A program made the position numbers and the translations under genes. Positions 11,170 through 23,525 of a stretch of DNA of 27,352 nucleotides are shown here, piece by piece; position 1 is the stretch's first letter; each line of letters starts with the position of its first letter. Below the pieces are notes generated by a model. The model was not told the DNA's origin and made no database searches. It saw only the letters and a list, made by a program, of their open reading frames with translations. The stretch is from the IMG/VR virus record IMGVR_UViG_3300046011_003437, positions 1-27,352 of that record; one strand, written 5' to 3'. The stretch is from a virus.

Positions 11170-11606
11170 AGTTTCACCTCCTCATCAAACTGATAGTTCA
11201 CATTGACCCCTGTCCACTCAATCATCTTGCCATCCTCAAACATCCACTTCCACTTTTCCCCGTCCTCGCCCGTCCACTCAAACTCTCCCGATAGATACGG
11301 GGCGGCAGCGGAAAAGAACCACTTCTCGTCCCCAATCTTGGAGTCGTAGGCGAAGATGAGGATGCCACCATCATCTTCGTCCTGAACCTCAAACCCTAAC
11401 GTTAGGAAGACCTCCTTCGCGTTCGGGATGGTACGCAAGTCTTCTGGCATCCACGCAAAGAACTTCGTTGTTCTCTCTGCGCTATACGAACCTCCCCCCA
11501 TCAGGTCGGTGCGCTCTTGGAGTGCCATCATCGCCTCGTACGCCTTACCGAGATCATCCTTCTTGATCCGTACATTACCGCTTCCGCTTACATAGTACCC
11601 CATCAT
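11166..11606 (-). CDS. Hypothetical protein
   Basis: 146 residues, acidic, rich in Trp and Phe. It begins with a possible strand pair (YYVSGSGNVRIKKDDLGKAYEAM) and ends with repeated Trp motifs (EFEWTGEDGEKWKWMFEDGKMIEW). GGGGGAG directly precedes two consecutive ATGs (11606, 11603). No family recognised; similar acidic Trp-rich proteins occur in phage accessory operons. Confidence 0.7.
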   Translation of the reverse strand: MMGYYVSGSGNVRIKKDDLGKAYEAMMALQERTDLMGGGSYSAERTTKFFAWMPEDLRTIPNAKEVFLTLGFEVQDEDDGGILIFAYDSKIGDEKWFFSAAAPYLSGEFEWTGEDGEKWKWMFEDGKMIEWTGVNVNYQFDEEVKL

Positions 11607-11612
11607 CTCCCC

Positions 11613-11903
11613 CTATCCAAATAGGATGCGGCGGTGTGCCACATCTCTAAAACTAATGTGATCATAGTCAAGGATGGCATCCTCAACCTGCTCATCTGTC
11701 ATCGCGTCCACCTCGGAAACCTCAAAGTCCGTCCCGCCCATCTCCTCAATGAGCCACGCACGAGCCGCTTGGCGAGATTCGTCTGCCGTATCGTGAGCCT
11801 CGTAGACGATGCCGTCATCGCTTACCACGATGAACTCATACACCACGAACACATCCCACTCACCACTCTCTACTCGTGTGCCGTCCTCTTTCTCGTATGC
11901 CAT
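11613..11903 (-). CDS. Hypothetical acidic protein
   Basis: 96 residues, acidic. It shows a central strand pair (WDVFVVYEFIVVSDDGIVYEA) and helix (DESRQAARAWLIEEMGG). GGGGGAGTT precedes the ATG at 11903. No family recognised. It lies between the Trp-rich protein and the RlpA-like gene. Confidence 0.65.
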   Translation of the reverse strand: MAYEKEDGTRVESGEWDVFVVYEFIVVSDDGIVYEAHDTADESRQAARAWLIEEMGGTDFEVSEVDAMTDEQVEDAILDYDHISFRDVAHRRILFG

Positions 11904-11920
11904 AACTCCCCCCTTCTCTA

Positions 11921-12322
11921 CTATCGTGCGCCCAAGTAGCGCACGCTTACCTTAGCGACACCTTCGCCAAGTGTCAAGCCTAACGCCAAGAACGCCATAG
12001 GGCTGAGGTCAATCAACACCCTTCCCTGATCGCACGCTCGGCAGTAATCCCTCACAATGACCCGCACCTCCTTGCCTGTCTTCTTACTCCTCACAATCAC
12101 CGCAACGGGCTTCATCCCATACCTGAACCACGCCGTTGCGCCGTATAGCCAACGCTCCCCGCCCCGCCCGCCGTTGCGCTTCGCAACATAGGGCGAGCAG
12201 GTATCGGTACGCCCCAAGAACGACACCCCCGCAGGGCATCGTGCGCCATACCAAGTAGCGCGGTCGGTAGGTGCGGCGGGCGTAGCCGCCAACACCACCG
12301 AGAGCGCGAGCGCGGCGATCAA
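11921..12322 (-). CDS. Secreted RlpA-like double-psi beta-barrel protein
   Basis: 133 residues from TTG 12322, with GTGGAGG 4 bases upstream. An N-terminal signal peptide (IAALALSVVLAATPA, probable cleavage after TPA) is followed by RATWYGAR (the family's A-s-W-Y-G start), YGATAWFRYG, VRSKKTGKEVRVIVRDYC with Asp92, and RVLIDLSPMAFLAL with Asp105, the conserved core of RlpA-type barrels. RlpA binds or cleaves glycan strands in peptidoglycan. It is not beside the holin, so it may act on the wall or envelope early, or be displayed outside. Cys94/Cys97 (YCRAC) could form a disulphide after export. Confidence 0.8.
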   Translation of the reverse strand: MIAALALSVVLAATPAAPTDRATWYGARCPAGVSFLGRTDTCSPYVAKRNGGRGGERWLYGATAWFRYGMKPVAVIVRSKKTGKEVRVIVRDYCRACDQGRVLIDLSPMAFLALGLTLGEGVAKVSVRYLGAR

Positions 12323-12420
12323 AGAGCCTCCACGCCCAGACCAGATAGCAACACCGCCGCCGCGATAATCACCGCGAGCAAAATGATGCGATAGTCCTCG
12401 TCCGTGTATTCTCTACGCAT
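12319..12420 (-). CDS. 33-residue membrane peptide coupled to RlpA-like gene
   Basis: Short frame from ATG 12420 whose TGA overlaps the TTG start of the RlpA-like gene (TTGA), while its start overlaps the upstream gene by 8 bases. A charged N terminus (RREYTDEDYR) is followed by one membrane helix (IILLAVIIAAAVLLSGLGV). Codon use matches its neighbours. It may be a partner of the secreted protein; function unknown. Confidence 0.6.
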   Translation of the reverse strand: MRREYTDEDYRIILLAVIIAAAVLLSGLGVEAL

Positions 12421-12802
12421 TATCCGCCACCCTCTCCGCGTACGCCGCACGCTCGGCGCGGTAGGCGGGGATGCTAGCCCGCAACGCTTCTAGGGTGTAG
12501 CGGTCATCACCGCGCCCCGCCGCCATCCCCTCGCGGTAGGCGTGGATGAGGTGATACACCTCCCGCTTCGTGCCGTAGCCGCTCGTGATGCTACGCACCC
12601 CGCCGCCCTCGTTGACGATCTGCTGCAACTGGTAGCCGCCATACGCCCCTGCTAGGGTGTAGCGTCCAACCATCGCCCTATTCTGCCCATCCTCGCCCCG
12701 CGTCCATAGCGGCGCGTCTGCCTCCGCCTCGGAGAATCCCGCTATGCGGTTGAGTCCCCGCACCGCGCCGTTGAGGTCTGCCATCGTGTACCTGTACGCC
12801 AT
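12413..12802 (-). CDS. Phage hypothetical protein with GAYGGY motif
   Basis: 129 residues. YTMADLNGAVRGLNRIAG, VGRYTLAGAYGGYQLQQIVNEGGGVRSI and KREVYHLIHAYREGM resemble a small conserved protein I associate with actinobacteriophage genomes; its function is unknown. GGGGGAG-ATT precedes ATG 12802, the same leader as several other genes in this block. Coding sequence is very GC-rich with many CTAG sites. Confidence 0.75.
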   Translation of the reverse strand: MAYRYTMADLNGAVRGLNRIAGFSEAEADAPLWTRGEDGQNRAMVGRYTLAGAYGGYQLQQIVNEGGGVRSITSGYGTKREVYHLIHAYREGMAAGRGDDRYTLEALRASIPAYRAERAAYAERVADNA

Positions 12803-12829
12803 AATCTCCCCCTAACTAACTATTGGCTA

Positions 12830-12852
12830 GGGGGCGGCTATCTGCCGCCCCC
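12830..12852 (-). repeat. Intergenic hairpin H1 (GGGGGCGGC stem)
   Basis: GGGGGCGGC (12830-12838) and GCCGCCCCC (12844-12852) form a perfect 9-bp stem with loop TATCT. It lies 11 bases beyond the stop of the 12864 gene and about 28 bases before the next start. First of five related hairpins in this operon. No T-run follows, so mRNA stabilisation or processing is as likely as termination. Confidence 0.75.
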
Positions 12853-12863
12853 CGCCGTATACT

Positions 12864-13058
12864 TTACGCCGCCAACCTACTCATTGGCAAGAGCGCAGAA
12901 TAGGCTACGCGCTCCAAGAATACGCGCCGCCATTGCGGCGGTAGCGTTGCCGCTTCTGCGCGGATAGCATCAACGGCGGCGGCTTCTACGCCATCCCGCC
13001 GCGCTACTAGCCAACGGCTAGCCGCTTCTCGTGCTTGTGCTTCTATCTGCTTCTCCAT
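12864..13058 (-). CDS. Small Ala/Arg-rich hypothetical protein
   Basis: 64 residues, almost wholly helical (QIEAQAREAASRWLVARRDG, DAIRAEAATLPPQWRRVFLE). GGGGGAG-ATT precedes ATG 13058. Flanked on both sides by the GGGGGCGG hairpins, so it is a separate cassette in the operon. Not recognised. Confidence 0.65.
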   Translation of the reverse strand: MEKQIEAQAREAASRWLVARRDGVEAAAVDAIRAEAATLPPQWRRVFLERVAYSALLPMSRLAA

Positions 13059-13082
13059 AATCTCCCCCTATGCTATGGGCTA

Positions 13083-13104
13083 GGGGGCGGCTAACGCCGC
13101 CCCC
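13083..13104 (-). repeat. Intergenic hairpin H2 (GGGGGCGGC stem)
   Basis: GGGGGCGGC (13083-13091) and GCCGCCCCC (13096-13104) form the same 9-bp stem as H1 with loop TAAC. It begins 10 bases after the stop of the 13115 gene, reading leftward, and lies 24 bases before the start of the 12864 gene. Confidence 0.75.
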
Positions 13105-13114
13105 CGCCATCGTG

Positions 13115-13300
13115 CTACTTTCCCGCGTAGTGTTCTGCTAGTCTGGTGTTGATCTCATCGGCTACGCCGTAGACCACAACCAAAACCCCTAGCCCCGCAA
13201 ACGCGCCAACAACCGCCCCCGCGATACCCGCGAAGTGTTGACCCGCCCCCGCGCCGATAACAACCGCCGCGAAGATGAGAAACTTATCCGTTGCGCTCAT
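13115..13300 (-). CDS. Small membrane protein
   Basis: 61 residues. FLIFAAVVIGAGAGQHFAGI and AGAVVGAFAGLGVLVVVYGV are two closely spaced glycine/alanine-rich membrane helices, ending in a charged tail (ADEINTRLAEHYAGK). It follows its own promoter (13343-13371) with a leader of about 35 bases and a GGGGGA ribosome site. Holin-like in size, but unlinked to a lysin. Confidence 0.7.
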   Translation of the reverse strand: MSATDKFLIFAAVVIGAGAGQHFAGIAGAVVGAFAGLGVLVVVYGVADEINTRLAEHYAGK

Positions 13301-13342
13301 ACCATCCCCCTATTCTGGCGGGATTCTCCCGCCCTACGCCAT

Positions 13343-13371
13343 ACCCTAACCCCTAGCGGGGCGGGTGTCAA
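13343..13371 (-). promoter_or_regulatory. Leftward promoter P2 (TTGACA-17-TAGGGT)
   Basis: Read on the minus strand, TTGACA (13371-13366), a 17-base spacer and TAGGGT (13348-13343). The -35 is consensus and the -10 fits TAnnnT. It sits 43 bases before the start of the membrane-protein gene at 13300. The -35, the preceding CTA and the -10 are identical to promoter P1. Confidence 0.65.
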
Positions 13372-13373
13372 TA

Positions 13374-13398
13374 GGGGGCGGGCTATACACCCGCCCCC
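13374..13398 (-). repeat. Intergenic hairpin H3 (GGGGGCGGG stem)
   Basis: GGGGGCGGG (13374-13382) pairs with CCCGCCCCC (13390-13398), 9 bp, loop CTATACA. It lies between the stop of the 13407 gene and the -35 of promoter P2, the arrangement expected of a terminator that insulates one unit from the next promoter. Confidence 0.75.
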
Positions 13399-13406
13399 CG
13401 TAGCGG

Positions 13407-13745
13407 CTACCCGCGCCGCTTATACTCCGCGAGTAGTAGCGTCATCTCACCGCGCCCCTCCGCGCCCGTATAGCAGGGGCGGCACGCCGTAGCGGTATCG
13501 TCTAGGTATGCCCCGCCCTCATCCCGCCACGGGAGGGGCCAAGCGTCTAGCGTTGCGACAATCGCCCCGCACGCCGCGCAGGTATGCGCCTCGCACGCCG
13601 TCCCCTCATCGGGGTAGTATAGAATCGCCGCGCAACCCTCGGCGGCGCACTTATGCGGCGCGTACTCCGTACCGCATACGCACTCCGCGTAGTATTGTCT
13701 ACACCCCTCGCAGGTGTCTATGCTTGCCATCCTTACCCCTGCCAT
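13407..13745 (-). CDS. Cys-rich probable zinc-binding protein
   Basis: 112 residues with about fourteen cysteines arranged in pairs: CEGC, ECVCG, a Cys pair in HKCAAEGC, HTCAAC and CRPC. This suggests two or three zinc sites. GGGGGAG-ATT precedes ATG 13745. The C-terminal 25 residues are helical. Possibly an adaptor binding DNA or host RNA polymerase, as some small phage zinc proteins do; no direct support. Confidence 0.65.
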   Translation of the reverse strand: MAGVRMASIDTCEGCRQYYAECVCGTEYAPHKCAAEGCAAILYYPDEGTACEAHTCAACGAIVATLDAWPLPWRDEGGAYLDDTATACRPCYTGAEGRGEMTLLLAEYKRRG

Positions 13746-13764
13746 AATCTCCCCCTATCCTATC

Positions 13765-13789
13765 GGGGCGGGGGTATCTCCCCCGCCCC
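13765..13789 (-). repeat. Intergenic hairpin H4 (GGGGCGGGGG stem)
   Basis: GGGGCGGGGG (13765-13774) and CCCCCGCCCC (13780-13789) make a perfect 10-bp stem with loop TATCT, the same loop as H1. It lies 20 bases upstream of the 13745 start and close to the predicted transcription start of promoter P3, so it would form in the 5' leader of that transcript. Confidence 0.7.
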
Positions 13790-13793
13790 CTAT

Positions 13794-13822
13794 ACCCTAC
13801 CCCCTCGCGGGGGGATTGTATA
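13794..13822 (-). promoter_or_regulatory. Leftward promoter P3 (TATACA-17-TAGGGT)
   Basis: On the minus strand TATACA (13822-13817, 4 of 6 matches to TTGACA), a 17-base spacer and TAGGGT (13799-13794), the same -10 as P1 and P2. Located between the 13826 and 13407 genes. Weaker than the other two by its -35. Confidence 0.45.
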
Positions 13823-13825
13823 CCC

Positions 13826-14137
13826 CTAGAATCGGCTAGCCGTGCGGCGTTGCGATAACGCCTCATCAATCGCACGCCCCGCCCCGTAGGTACCGCCGCC
13901 GCTAGCGGCTAGCGTTGCCCGCGTACGGCTAGCAGATACGGCTACCGCGTCAAGGAAGCGGCTACCATCATAGCGCGGGCTACTATCGGCTAGGCTATCG
14001 GCTACGGCTAGGGCTACGCGATACGCCGCCCCCGCCGCCCGTATACCCTCGCCGCCGCTGTCCGCTACCGCTTCCACCGCAACCGCACGCCCTAGCGTAG
14101 CGGCTATCGCTTCATAGTCCCGCTTGCTCATTGCCAT
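13826..14137 (-). CDS. First gene of the leftward operon, hypothetical
   Basis: 103 residues, Ala/Arg/Ser-rich and largely helical (AIAATLGRAVAVEAVADSGG, AYRVALAVADSLADSS). GGGGGA lies 4 bases before ATG 14137. It is the promoter-proximal gene behind P1 (14202-14231). CTAG occurs repeatedly in its coding sequence. Not recognised; early position could fit a host-takeover protein, without evidence. Confidence 0.6.
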   Translation of the reverse strand: MAMSKRDYEAIAATLGRAVAVEAVADSGGEGIRAAGAAYRVALAVADSLADSSPRYDGSRFLDAVAVSASRTRATLAASGGGTYGAGRAIDEALSQRRTASRF

Positions 14138-14177
14138 CGTATCCCCCTATCGTACGCGCCTCGTGCTACCCATCAAG

Positions 14178-14793: not shown

Positions 14794-15051
14794 ATGCCAC
14801 GAGGTTCAGGATACGACGGTATGAACGATTGGTCGGATAAGCGCGGAAAGCGAAAGAGGCCAGCACCAGGTGGCCCGCAGAAGAGGCCAGCACCAGGTGG
14901 TAAGCAGCCAAAGCCAGGGAAGATCCAGCCAATCGTTGGTCGAAAGCCAGGTAAGCCTCGTGACCCAGGGTTCGTCCCTACCCCACGAGTACCAAAGAAT
15001 CCAGATCGTAAGACCATTATGCCTGTAAGGCCAAAGAAGAGGGGACTGTAA
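14794..15051 (+). CDS. Small basic Pro/Gly/Lys-rich protein
   Basis: 85 residues, highly basic and low-complexity, with an internal repeat (KRPAPGG twice) and many PxxP segments. Probably disordered. AGGAG and AGAGGG lie within 20 bases of ATG 14794. First gene of the late operon and followed by other basic proteins; a DNA-condensing or internal head protein is possible by composition and position only. Confidence 0.65.
   Translation: MPRGSGYDGMNDWSDKRGKRKRPAPGGPQKRPAPGGKQPKPGKIQPIVGRKPGKPRDPGFVPTPRVPKNPDRKTIMPVRPKKRGL
14854..14900 (+). repeat. 20-bp in-frame tandem repeat
   Basis: AAGAGGCCAGCACCAGGTGG is present exactly at 14854-14873 and 14881-14900, a 27-base (9-codon) period that duplicates the KRPAPGG motif in the basic protein. 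Confidence 0.8.
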
Positions 15052-15053
15052 AA

Positions 15054-15746
15054 ATGGCAGTAGATCGAGGATATGGGTCAGGGAAGCCACGCTCGGCGGC
15101 CAACTCGTCAATGCGACGACGTGTTGCCGCTGGCCAGACGCCTAAAAGCAAGAAGAAGATGGCGCCATTGGGTTCTGGTGCGTCGCAGAGCCTAAAGGCT
15201 GAAAAAAGCCGACTTTCTGGAAATCTTCTTGAGGCATTTACTGGATTTAATAAGAAGGACGGCGTAGACGCTGGGGACGTCGCTGGGCTTGCACTAGCAA
15301 TCCCTGCTGGCATCGGTGGGGCAGTTCTCAGGGCTGGATCACGACTTGTTCCTGCTGGTGTTCGCATTGCCAAGGCAGCAACACGAGTTTCTAGGGTTGC
15401 CAGAGGAACCAGGCGTAATCTTTCCGAGCCACTTGCGGCAGCAAGAAAGAAAGTTTCTTCGGAACTTGACAATGTTAAAATGGCTGGAAGCGATGCCTAT
15501 TCTAATTACTACGCAATGGAAAGACGTATTGGCTCTGGCCCGACAGATATGCTGTATGGATCTGAGGGGAAATACATTCAGCGCGCTAAGGACGCAGCAT
15601 ATGTAAATGTTAATAAGGCTGGGGAAAAAGCGGTCAGACTAGGGAGACTTGCAGAGCGAGCGGCAGAGCGATCAGATGTAGTTAGCGCCGCCGATGAAAT
15701 TAAGCGTCGACTTGCTGCACTTAAGCGAGCAAAGAGAAACCGATAA
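15054..15746 (+). CDS. Basic virion-region protein with shared 28-residue N-terminal tag (paralogue A)
   Basis: 230 residues, strongly basic. Residues 1-28 (MAVDRGYGSGKPRSAANSSM then RRRVAAGQ) are repeated with one change at the start of the 16200 gene, while the rest differs. A hydrophobic stretch (VAGLALAIPAGIGGAVLRAG) lies near residue 80, followed by Arg/Ala-rich helices to the end (LGRLAERAAERSDVVSAADE). A shared tag on different bodies suggests a common targeting or assembly signal, for example into the capsid. No family recognised; third positions are more AT-rich than in the left operon. Confidence 0.7.
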   Translation: MAVDRGYGSGKPRSAANSSMRRRVAAGQTPKSKKKMAPLGSGASQSLKAEKSRLSGNLLEAFTGFNKKDGVDAGDVAGLALAIPAGIGGAVLRAGSRLVPAGVRIAKAATRVSRVARGTRRNLSEPLAAARKKVSSELDNVKMAGSDAYSNYYAMERRIGSGPTDMLYGSEGKYIQRAKDAAYVNVNKAGEKAVRLGRLAERAAERSDVVSAADEIKRRLAALKRAKRNR

Positions 15747-15805
15747 AAAGTTACAACGCGACCGTTTCAGTGGGGGATGCAGTTTAAGACCATTTCGGAG
15801 GTAGT

Positions 15806-16198
15806 ATGCGGGAGAAACGACTCAAAGACTACCTTGACCGTGCAAAGCGCATCCTCAACTTGAGCCACTGGGAGATTAAAGTCTCCTCAGATCCGCCTCC
15901 AGATGATGCTTGGGCCGATGTCGAGGTGTCTCAGAACCTTTATGCAGCTACTATCCGCTTCTCCCCAGGACTCTGGAAGGAGAAACCAGAAGAGATTAGG
16001 CGTGTGATTGCACACGAATTGATTCATTGCCACTATGCGGGGGTCGAACGCCTAGTGGAAGTGGTCCAGGATGCCCTCGGCACGACTGCTGGGGAGATCG
16101 TGGAGAAGATATGGGACGTGGAGTCCGAACGGGGAGCAGATTCGCTCTCAACTGCGGTAGCAGAACTTCTACCATTACCAACATTTGGAGATAAATAA
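15806..16198 (+). CDS. Zincin-like putative metallopeptidase
   Basis: 130 residues. The HELIH motif (His70, Glu71, His74) in RRVIAHELIHCHYAGVERL is the zinc and catalytic signature of zincins; Glu106 or Glu108 in the next helix could be the third ligand. The N-terminal region (LSHWEIKVSSDPPPDDAWAD, ATIRFSPGLWKE, PEEIR) follows a layout common in small phage zincins. GGAGG precedes ATG 15806. It sits between the two tag-sharing paralogues, so cleavage of virion proteins is a testable idea, but such genes are also common with no known substrate. Confidence 0.75.
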   Translation: MREKRLKDYLDRAKRILNLSHWEIKVSSDPPPDDAWADVEVSQNLYAATIRFSPGLWKEKPEEIRRVIAHELIHCHYAGVERLVEVVQDALGTTAGEIVEKIWDVESERGADSLSTAVAELLPLPTFGDK

Positions 16199-16199
16199 G

Positions 16200-16718
16200 A
16201 TGGCAGTCGACAAGGGTTACGGATCAGGGAAGCCACGCTCGGCAGCGAACTCGTCAATGCGACGACGTGTTGCCGCTGGCCAGTTGAGCAAGAGAAAGTT
16301 GACTAATAGCGAACAGTTTGATCGTTCACGAAAAAAGCTGGCAGCATCTCCGCTTGGTCAGTTTGCTGATACTCTTCTAGGATTTGCCCTGCCAGTTGGC
16401 AAGGTAAAAGCTGCGGCTGCTGCCTTTAGATCGCGTGGGTCTGGGTTTGCTATGAGCCAACTTGAATCTAGGGTTATGGCAAAGGAATTTGGAAAGCAAA
16501 GGGCAAAAGAGATCGCCTCTGGTGTTCCTGCATCAAGCACTTATAATTATGGGCTTGGACCAATTTCACGAGTAGCCTCTTCTAATTTGTATCCAAAATA
16601 TTCGCCGCCGAAGCCAACAACGCCTGCGCAAAGAATTGTTGACAACCCACGATGGGGAAGGTCAACACGCCCAAAGGTTAAGCCGCTTCCAATTCCAAAG
16701 GGAAGGGGCGGTCGATAA
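16200..16718 (+). CDS. Basic virion-region protein with shared N-terminal tag (paralogue B)
   Basis: 172 residues from ATG 16200, chosen because the homologous tag begins exactly there (an in-frame ATG at 16185 lies inside the zincin gene). Residues 1-28 equal those of the 15054 protein except Lys for Arg at position 5. A hydrophobic stretch (LGQFADTLLGFALPVGKV) lies at about residues 53-70; the C-terminal part is Pro/Arg/Lys-rich. The stop overlaps the next ATG (TAATG). Function unknown. Confidence 0.7.
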   Translation: MAVDKGYGSGKPRSAANSSMRRRVAAGQLSKRKLTNSEQFDRSRKKLAASPLGQFADTLLGFALPVGKVKAAAAAFRSRGSGFAMSQLESRVMAKEFGKQRAKEIASGVPASSTYNYGLGPISRVASSNLYPKYSPPKPTTPAQRIVDNPRWGRSTRPKVKPLPIPKGRGGR

Positions 16719-17032
16719 TGGCAGCGGTTAGACGTCAAAAGGGCGACAAGACAAAGGTGTCCGCTAACGGTAACCTTGTTGTAACGCGAGCAAATGGTAA
16801 CGTCGTAAGAATTAATCCAAACAAAGGGATCGTTGTTCGGATGAAGGCAGACGGTACCAAGGTAACGCAAAAGTGGACACCTACGCCGACTAAGGCTGTT
16901 GGAAAGACTGGATCCACATACAGCGCAAGCGGCGGTGTTGCAACCAAGTGGAATATAGAGTCTATGCCTAGGAAGCAAAGTCTTACAAATTCACAACCAA
17001 AACCTTCACGAACACAAGACAGGAACCGATAA
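16718..17032 (+). CDS. Basic hypothetical protein
   Basis: 104 residues. The first 50 alternate short strands with Asn/Gly turns (ANGNLVVTRANGNVVRINPN, GIVVRMKADGTKV), resembling a small beta-sheet. The rest is Ser/Thr/Lys-rich and probably disordered. TAATG junctions on both sides. Not recognised. Confidence 0.65.
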   Translation: MAAVRRQKGDKTKVSANGNLVVTRANGNVVRINPNKGIVVRMKADGTKVTQKWTPTPTKAVGKTGSTYSASGGVATKWNIESMPRKQSLTNSQPKPSRTQDRNR

Positions 17033-17205
17033 TGCCAGGCAAGATGATTCCCGTAAAAGGTCGTGGTCCAAAGGGCGCTACCAAGAAGCCGAAGGGCAAG
17101 GGTATGCCTGGTGACCAGTACAAGCCAGACTCAAAGAAGCCAACGCCAAACCGACGGCGCTTCCTTGAGCAACTCAACGAGATGAATAAGAAGGCGGGTT
17201 ACTAA
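17032..17205 (+). CDS. Small basic protein (57 aa)
   Basis: Short gene whose ATG overlaps the previous stop (TAATG) and which ends one base before the next start. Lys/Pro/Gly-rich N terminus (VKGRGPKGATKKPKGKGMPG) and a helical end (RRRFLEQLNEMNKKAGY). Composition matches the neighbouring small basic proteins. Not recognised. Confidence 0.65.
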   Translation: MPGKMIPVKGRGPKGATKKPKGKGMPGDQYKPDSKKPTPNRRRFLEQLNEMNKKAGY

Positions 17206-17206
17206 T

Positions 17207-17425
17207 ATGCCGAAGGTAGGCGGGAAAGAGTTCCCATACACCAAGAAGGGTATCGCTGCGGCAAAGAAGGCTGAGAAGGGCCTCTACGCCAACATCAACG
17301 CCAAGAAGAAGCGGATTGCCGCTGGCTCTGGCGAGAAGATGCGCAAGCCAGGGAGCAAGGGCGCACCTACTGCTAAAGACTTTAAGGAATCAGCCAAGAC
17401 AGCAAAGGGTCGTAAGGGGAAGTAA
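17207..17425 (+). CDS. Small lysine-rich phage protein
   Basis: 72 residues. The start MPKVGGKEFPYTKKGIAAAK is a pattern I recognise from small basic proteins in aquatic phage genomes, often near structural genes; function unknown. Almost a quarter Lys. The stop overlaps the fibre gene start (TAATG). Confidence 0.7.
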   Translation: MPKVGGKEFPYTKKGIAAAKKAEKGLYANINAKKKRIAAGSGEKMRKPGSKGAPTAKDFKESAKTAKGRKGK

Positions 17426-22772: not shown

Positions 22773-23223
22773 ACCTCCAGATGAAATTATTGTTCTGGCT
22801 TCTGATACTCCGCTTGAGATTGCTAGAAAGCTATATACTGGGGCTACGTTCTACGCGGAGCCAAACCTCAACGACTGGGGACACGCCAAGCGAGCCAAGG
22901 GGCTTGACCTGGCGACATCTGATTACACGGGCTGGTTCAACCACGACGACTCCTACGACAAGACCTACATCGAAAAGATGATGGCGCAGGACGGCAGCGA
23001 TGTCGTCTTCTGCGGATGGAGCAAGTCGGCTACCCCAAACTTCAGTGCTGGAAGTTCAACCTCTGGCAACTACATTGCGAAGACATCATACGCTCGGAGT
23101 GTTGGATATGAAGATCGACACTACGAAGCAGACGGAACATTCATCAACGGTCTTGCGGATCACGGTGGAAAGATCACAAGGGTCGCAGAAGTACTATATT
23201 TCCACAACGAGGTAAAAGAATGA
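22687..23223 (+). CDS. Small GT-A/family-2-like glycosyltransferase
   Basis: 178 residues from GTG 22687. FTAVVTVHDNEAGMIRTVAA, LAQTRPPDEIIVLASD and WFNHDDSYDKTYIEKM (DD at 87-88, the metal/nucleotide site) match the N-terminal GT-A fold of family 2. It is short, and the acceptor-binding half is reduced. It begins inside the cytidylyltransferase gene and ends with an ATGA overlap onto the DUF6321-like gene. Probably transfers a sugar to a virion or envelope target. Confidence 0.7.
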   Translation: MATFTAVVTVHDNEAGMIRTVAALLAQTRPPDEIIVLASDTPLEIARKLYTGATFYAEPNLNDWGHAKRAKGLDLATSDYTGWFNHDDSYDKTYIEKMMAQDGSDVVFCGWSKSATPNFSAGSSTSGNYIAKTSYARSVGYEDRHYEADGTFINGLADHGGKITRVAEVLYFHNEVKE

Positions 23224-23525
23224 AAACAGCAGCGTGGCAGCGTAAAGAGGGACAGAACCCAAAGGGTGGTCTCAACGCAAAGGGTCGGGCCTCGTACAAG
23301 GCGCAGACTGGCGGCACATTGAAGGCTCCAGTCAAGGGCGGAGACAATCCGCGACGCGCATCATTCCTCGCACGAATGGGAAATACTCCAGGTCCTGAAC
23401 GCGATGCGAAGGGGAAGCCGACCCGACTCCTTCTGTCGCTTCAGGCCTGGGGTGCAAGCAGTAAGGCGGATGCTCGCTCCAAGGCTAAAAACATCTCATC
23501 TCGCCTTAAGGCGAAGAAGTCTTGA
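23220..23525 (+). CDS. DUF6321-like small protein next to terminase
   Basis: 101 residues. TAAWQRKEGQNPKGGLNAKG, GDNPRRASFLARMG and LLLSLQAWGASSKADARSKA follow the DUF6321 pattern that is frequent in phage genomes close to terminase genes. Basic. Overlaps by 4 bases on both sides. Function unknown; location suggests packaging or capsid assembly. Confidence 0.8.
   Translation: MKTAAWQRKEGQNPKGGLNAKGRASYKAQTGGTLKAPVKGGDNPRRASFLARMGNTPGPERDAKGKPTRLLLSLQAWGASSKADARSKAKNISSRLKAKKS

Follow-up and report, generated by a model that had tools for sequence, protein, structure and literature searches.

The DNA analysed here, referred to as the window, is an IMG/VR record taken whole and comprises 27,352 bases. 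Within its rightward late cluster two genes, for a 230-aa protein (p1) and a 172-aa protein (p2), lie on either side of a gene for a zincin, and both translations open with a 28-residue stretch, MAVD[R/K]GYGSGKPRSAANSSMRRRVAAGQ, which is here called the tag (Table 1). The p2 gene most likely starts at the ATG listed rather than at an upstream TTG (16185). Both proteins are basic, with net charges of +11.7 (p1) and +15.1 (p2) per 100 aa, and p1 has a single Gly/Ala-rich hydrophobic stretch at residues 76-94. Neither matched a known family in Pfam, PHROGs, PADLOC or NCBIfam, comparison with the PDB gave nothing convincing, and five tagged relatives searched against PHROGs were likewise without a match. 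The AlphaFold2 model of p2 (pLDDT 55) is not interpretable and was left out of the fold search.

Table 1. Features of the rightward late cluster around the two tagged genes (positions are those of the window).
Feature	Position	Strand	Basis or remark
85-aa basic Pro/Gly-rich protein, untagged; opens the rightward late cluster	14794..15051	+	ORF with ribosome-binding-like site; context only
Tag copy 1, MAVDRGYGSGKPRSAANSSMRRRVAAGQ	15054..15137	+	27/28 identity to copy 2; homologous tags in 13 further phage lineages
p1, 230-aa tagged protein, body family C	15054..15746	+	ATG with ribosome-binding-like site
Zincin, 130 aa, gluzincin type, HELIH: H70-E71-L-I-H74 and E108-x-x-A111-D112	15806..16198	+	Alignment, model, structural matches
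Tag copy 2, MAVDKGYGSGKPRSAANSSMRRRVAAGQ	16200..16283	+	Pairwise comparison with copy 1
p2, 172-aa tagged protein, body family A	16200..16718	+	Family A with tag in 9 lineages, without it in L006, L007 and G032
104-aa basic protein, untagged; net charge +16.3 per 100 aa	16718..17032	+	Context only
57-aa basic protein, start MPGKMIPVKGR	17032..17205	+	Start common to different proteins in relatives

In the relative G007 (41 kb) replication genes are followed by a divergent block and then, reading rightward, by a tagged gene, a zincin gene and small basic genes; the rightward order continues with fibre, terminase, portal, two very large proteins, scaffold, major head protein and an SU10-type adaptor. 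Tagged genes usually lie in the late cluster that also holds fibre, terminase and portal genes, while those of G035, G036 and L085 adjoin the terminase gene outside the usual cassette. Elsewhere in the window (11600-14160) CCATAATCTCCCCCTAT is repeated on the + strand, and on the minus strand these repeats read as a ribosome-binding-like site, GGGGGAG, that uniformly precedes the ATG of the leftward small genes. Several longer PHROG families are matched in their C-terminal parts by the GLYANI...GSGEKM and GGLNAKGRASYK modules encoded at 17207-17425 and 23220-23525, which suggests that phage proteins widely have such short modules in common.

Conservation and distribution of the tag

The two tags of the window differ solely at residue 5 (Arg in p1, Lys in p2), and their 84 coding bases differ at ten positions, seven of them silent, as the initial annotation had recorded; the other three are in codon 5. 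Similarity stops at residue 28, beyond which the bodies of the two proteins have no detectable homology; an hhalign comparison of the bodies with the tag removed gave P 0.03, a value at which homology is not established, and a TG[IF]...LA-A-P segment is found at a similar place in both. The DNA upstream of the two ATGs is unrelated. If ten substitutions were placed at random, the probability that at most one residue would change is 5e-5. The differences are, however, clustered, with eight of the ten falling within the first 24 nt (P=5e-4) and silent differences in five of eight early codons versus two of 20 later ones (P 0.009). The last 60 nt of the tag may therefore have been recently homogenised between the two copies, and taken by itself the window pair gives weak proof of selection. 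The claim that the protein sequence is being kept was originally made from this pair, and it is from comparison across phages that it draws its support. For the nine tags that can be aligned gap-free, pS is 0.69, near saturation, and pN is 0.19; for the tags of G038a and G007 the values are 0.95 and 0.07. Silent sites are thus nearly saturated while residues are kept, which indicates selection on the protein sequence and not on the DNA.

Further copies of the tag came to light when other phages were searched, as had been suggested, and they stand on varied proteins. In all, 19 distinct tagged proteins were counted in IMG/VR. They come from a single uncultured podovirus-like group and, once near-identical records had been merged, represent 14 lineages (the window, G002, G006, G007, G012, G013, G032, G033, G034, G035, G036, G038, L084 and L085). 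Two tagged proteins each are found in five of these (the window, G002, G038, L084 and L085). The loci were gathered with the zincin as query, which gave 30 in IMG/VR, and more were added by scanning for the tag pattern. Its length of 28 residues is a local feature of the window; across phages near-invariance is confined to about ten residues, M-[AG]-x-D-[KR]-[GS]-Y-G-[ST]-G, followed by some 15 looser basic residues. Within this core M1, D4, Y7, G8 and G10 are the same in 19/19 tagged proteins, and the variable sites are limited to Ala or Gly at residue 2, Lys or Arg (Asn once) at 5, Gly or Ser at 6 and Ser or Thr at 9. Conservation is looser past residue 10 and poor at residues 23-28. The GYGSGK of the tag resembles the P-loop of a terminase (L068). 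A Walker A motif (GxxxxGK[ST]) was nevertheless rejected, as its leading Gly is Lys or Arg in the tags and K11 is missing from ten of the 19.

Among the cultured phages of INPHARED no match was obtained to the tag, p1, a family A protein, the zincin or the portal. A pattern scan of GTDB returned ten hits for the tag, one of them for example in an HtrA-like protease, and these look like chance. A protein of L087 that starts MGNDRGYGSG lies in an unrelated setting and was also judged to be a chance match to the pattern. Because the tblastn-type search overlooked the G013 tag, which is shorter, statements that a phage has no tag depend mainly on the pattern scans; these demand a fixed start, and more divergent tags could escape them. 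A 54-aa tagged protein in G012 (L066:4908-5072) has almost no body and is perhaps a truncated copy. In G007 a very basic 101-aa protein (L046:19022-19327) starts MAEDRGY; the unusual E3 that it has in common with the tag of G007 may mark it as a diverged second tag.

Bodies behind the tag

At least four body families are preceded by the tag. Family A is found behind it in nine lineages, family B in G002b and G032, family C in p1 of the window, and several bodies have no relative in the set. It had been recognised at the outset that finding the tag only within one ordinary domain family would refute the proposed reading of it; the bodies are several and unrelated, and the tag is not confined in this way. 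Bodies also occur without it. Family A starts with a SEYL-type head (MAKSEYL) in L006 and L007 and with an LNPD-type head (MARRLNPD) in G032, and family C is untagged in G032 and G034, where its start, MAKRG[FL]TKGKKRE, resembles the linker behind the tag of G034 and G012. The tag is therefore not required for every member. In the cleanest case of a swap, that of G035 and L085, the body has been replaced while the flanks and the tag have been kept: DNA identity is 85% over about 1 kb upstream and over 626 bases downstream and 71% over a 140-bp tag region that begins just before the ATG, whereas no match is seen between the bodies. The tagged proteins, of 54 to 377 aa, have a net positive charge without exception (+5.7 to +22 per 100 aa), and in the genomes examined theirs are some of the most basic genes of at least 100 aa. 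These data support the view of the tag as a transferable N-terminal module under selection, placed on varied and strongly basic proteins of the late cluster.

Other common starts were seen in the same group. A second short start, MPGKMIP[VR]K.R, opens different small basic proteins, namely the 57-aa protein of the window and others at L057:1312, L057:2994, L007:2862 and L009:1831, two of these proteins being in G032. A third, LNPD[NS]A..N (L057:620, L012:1264, L014:8378 and L016:8378), is found on body A in G032 and on unrelated small proteins, and 64-aa proteins with the LNPD head resemble the MPGKMIP-headed ones in their C-terminal part. In G013 the starts MARKGRFG and MARQGQFG (L050:19130, L049:4964) open a 252-aa protein and a large protein downstream of the portal, possibly a further common start.

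The zincin and possible roles of the tag

The protein encoded between the two tagged genes of the window is predicted to be a gluzincin, having HExxH with a downstream Glu ligand in ExxAD. In an alignment of 20 members H70, E71, H74, E108 and A111 are invariant. Its AlphaFold2 model is confident (pLDDT 89.9) and the best structural matches include selecase (4qhf), abylysin (4jiu) and BepA (6ait), with VIA Z of 7.0-7.6 and rmsd of 3.1-3.5 A, although unrelated matches also reach such Z; for abylysin and selecase Z is 7.0-7.4, and BepA and others tie with them. The best Foldseek match was 4jiu (E 0.056, prob 0.96). The protein has the HExxH and ExxAD motifs in common with minigluzincins and M48-type zincins, and its predicted fold may resemble theirs, but its Z values are in a range common for unrelated matches and its sequence match, at E 0.11 against PDB chains, is not significant. 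Matches in BFVD were uncharacterised proteins of uncultured phages. Assignment to the SprT-like family (PF10263) was rejected, the window zincin scoring 21.2 bits against a Pfam gathering score of 25.6.

The distance between a tagged gene and the zincin gene is 0-1.6 kb in ten of the 14 lineages, and the order tag-zincin-tag occurs in three (the window, G002 and G038), whose zincins belong to two clades about 50% identical. The linkage is real, and dependence of one on the other is possible. This arrangement, together with the complete predicted active site, favours the idea that the neighbouring zincin docks on the tag or processes it and would so trim or activate the tagged proteins in or outside the virion. 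We regard this as unlikely, since the zincin is found with no tagged gene in many relatives, seven records of 39.9-42.9 kb among them. The tagged genes of G036 and L085 lie by the terminase gene with no zincin seen in these fragments; in the sequence at hand it is likewise missing from G033, which ends at the tagged gene, and from the fragments G035 and G037. Nor does the tag end in residues that point to a cut. Cleavage had been predicted at or near the GQ that ends at residue 28, but Q28 is present in four and G27 in seven of the 19 tagged proteins and positions 23-28 vary. The head protease of T4, gp21, is described as a serine protease and not a zincin (PMC9026906). Processing of the tag by the zincin, as first proposed, is possible but unsupported.

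Charge offers another route to function, in which the tag would be a general basic head that binds or condenses packaged DNA or RNA, with no specific protein receptor and no addressing. The net charge of the tag is +1 to +6 over the first 28 residues, the bodies are all basic and the neighbouring small late proteins are equally so. We nevertheless consider this improbable: the invariant residues are D4, Y7, G8 and G10, not Lys or Arg, and charge alone is therefore insufficient to account for the conservation of the tag. It is quite improbable that the tagged proteins instead work in infected cells, for example at the membrane or in lysis, and that the tag places them there. Several bodies have Gly/Ala-rich hydrophobic stretches and both of those in L084 look membrane-spanning, but in most members these stretches are marginal and often reached by shuffles, and the tag is polar and without the hydrophobic core of a signal peptide. 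That the common start is a by-product of recombination, a homologous stretch for body exchange or duplication kept by gene conversion and without function of its own, would agree with the patchy homogenisation suggested by the clustered differences of the window pair and with the two tagged genes of L085 versus one in G036, whose start matches both, but is very unlikely given that between phages silent sites are near saturation while residues are kept, which argues for constraint on the protein.

The reading that we prefer, and to which we give about an even chance, is that the tag acts as an address recruiting small basic late proteins into the virion, by analogy with the capsid-targeting sequences of T4. 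A constant phage partner would recognise the tag, that is the core and the 15 or so looser basic residues, and this partner would most plausibly be an inner-head or core component such as a scaffold, a portal or a DNA-associated protein. Whichever small basic protein stood behind the tag would then be recruited into the assembling particle; recruitment into the virion, the identity of the receptor and any delivery into the host cell are points that we infer. Since the address would be separate from the cargo, bodies could be exchanged in frame behind it and one phage could carry two tagged cargoes. Against this reading stand the untagged homologues of the bodies, the tagged genes that adjoin the terminase gene in G035, G036 and L085, and the lack of a conserved cut where the tag ends. 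In a broader version, which is highly doubtful, interchangeable heads (GYGSG, LNPD and PGKMIP) would recombine with many small basic bodies as a combinatorial cargo system and decide entry into the particle and location there, with the small zincin, rather than a serine-type head protease, maturing some of them.

Comparison with known systems

Exchangeable phage receptor-binding proteins have a conserved N-terminal anchor and a variable remainder. The tagged proteins likewise combine a constant N-terminus with a variable remainder, but their bodies are small, basic and Ala/Gly-rich, whereas receptor-binding proteins have fibre or enzyme domains there.

The internal proteins of T4 come closer. 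The propeptides of IPII and IPIII are identical, their mature parts are divergent and the proteins are basic, and ten residues suffice as the N-terminal address of IPIII (PMC9026906). The tagged proteins follow this pattern: different ones begin with the same short putative address, the bodies behind it are small, basic, divergent, poorly conserved and exchanged, and one phage may have several. No sequence relation between the T4 proteins and the tag was found. In T4 the tags are removed by gp21, whereas the 19 tagged proteins have no conserved cut site where the tag ends, and for this reason the tag is not classed as a T4-type capsid-targeting sequence. T4 also has a recognised prohead protease; no gp21-like enzyme was recognised in the subset of G007 proteins that was scanned, a comparison that remote homologues could escape.

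An N-terminal address exists outside T4 as well. In phage P1 the N-terminal 30 residues of DarB suffice for loading a reporter into the head (PMC9024508), a likeness to the role proposed for the tag. The Dar proteins have no common N-terminal consensus by BLAST (PMC9024508), whereas the tag has an explicit one, in a group for which no relative was found among 50,697 phage records. Should the tag indeed load proteins into particles, a capsid address would have been defined purely by comparing sequences; it would show phages exchanging cargo while the address stays, and would lead to new internal or delivered proteins of unknown function and to a directly testable loading motif of about ten residues.
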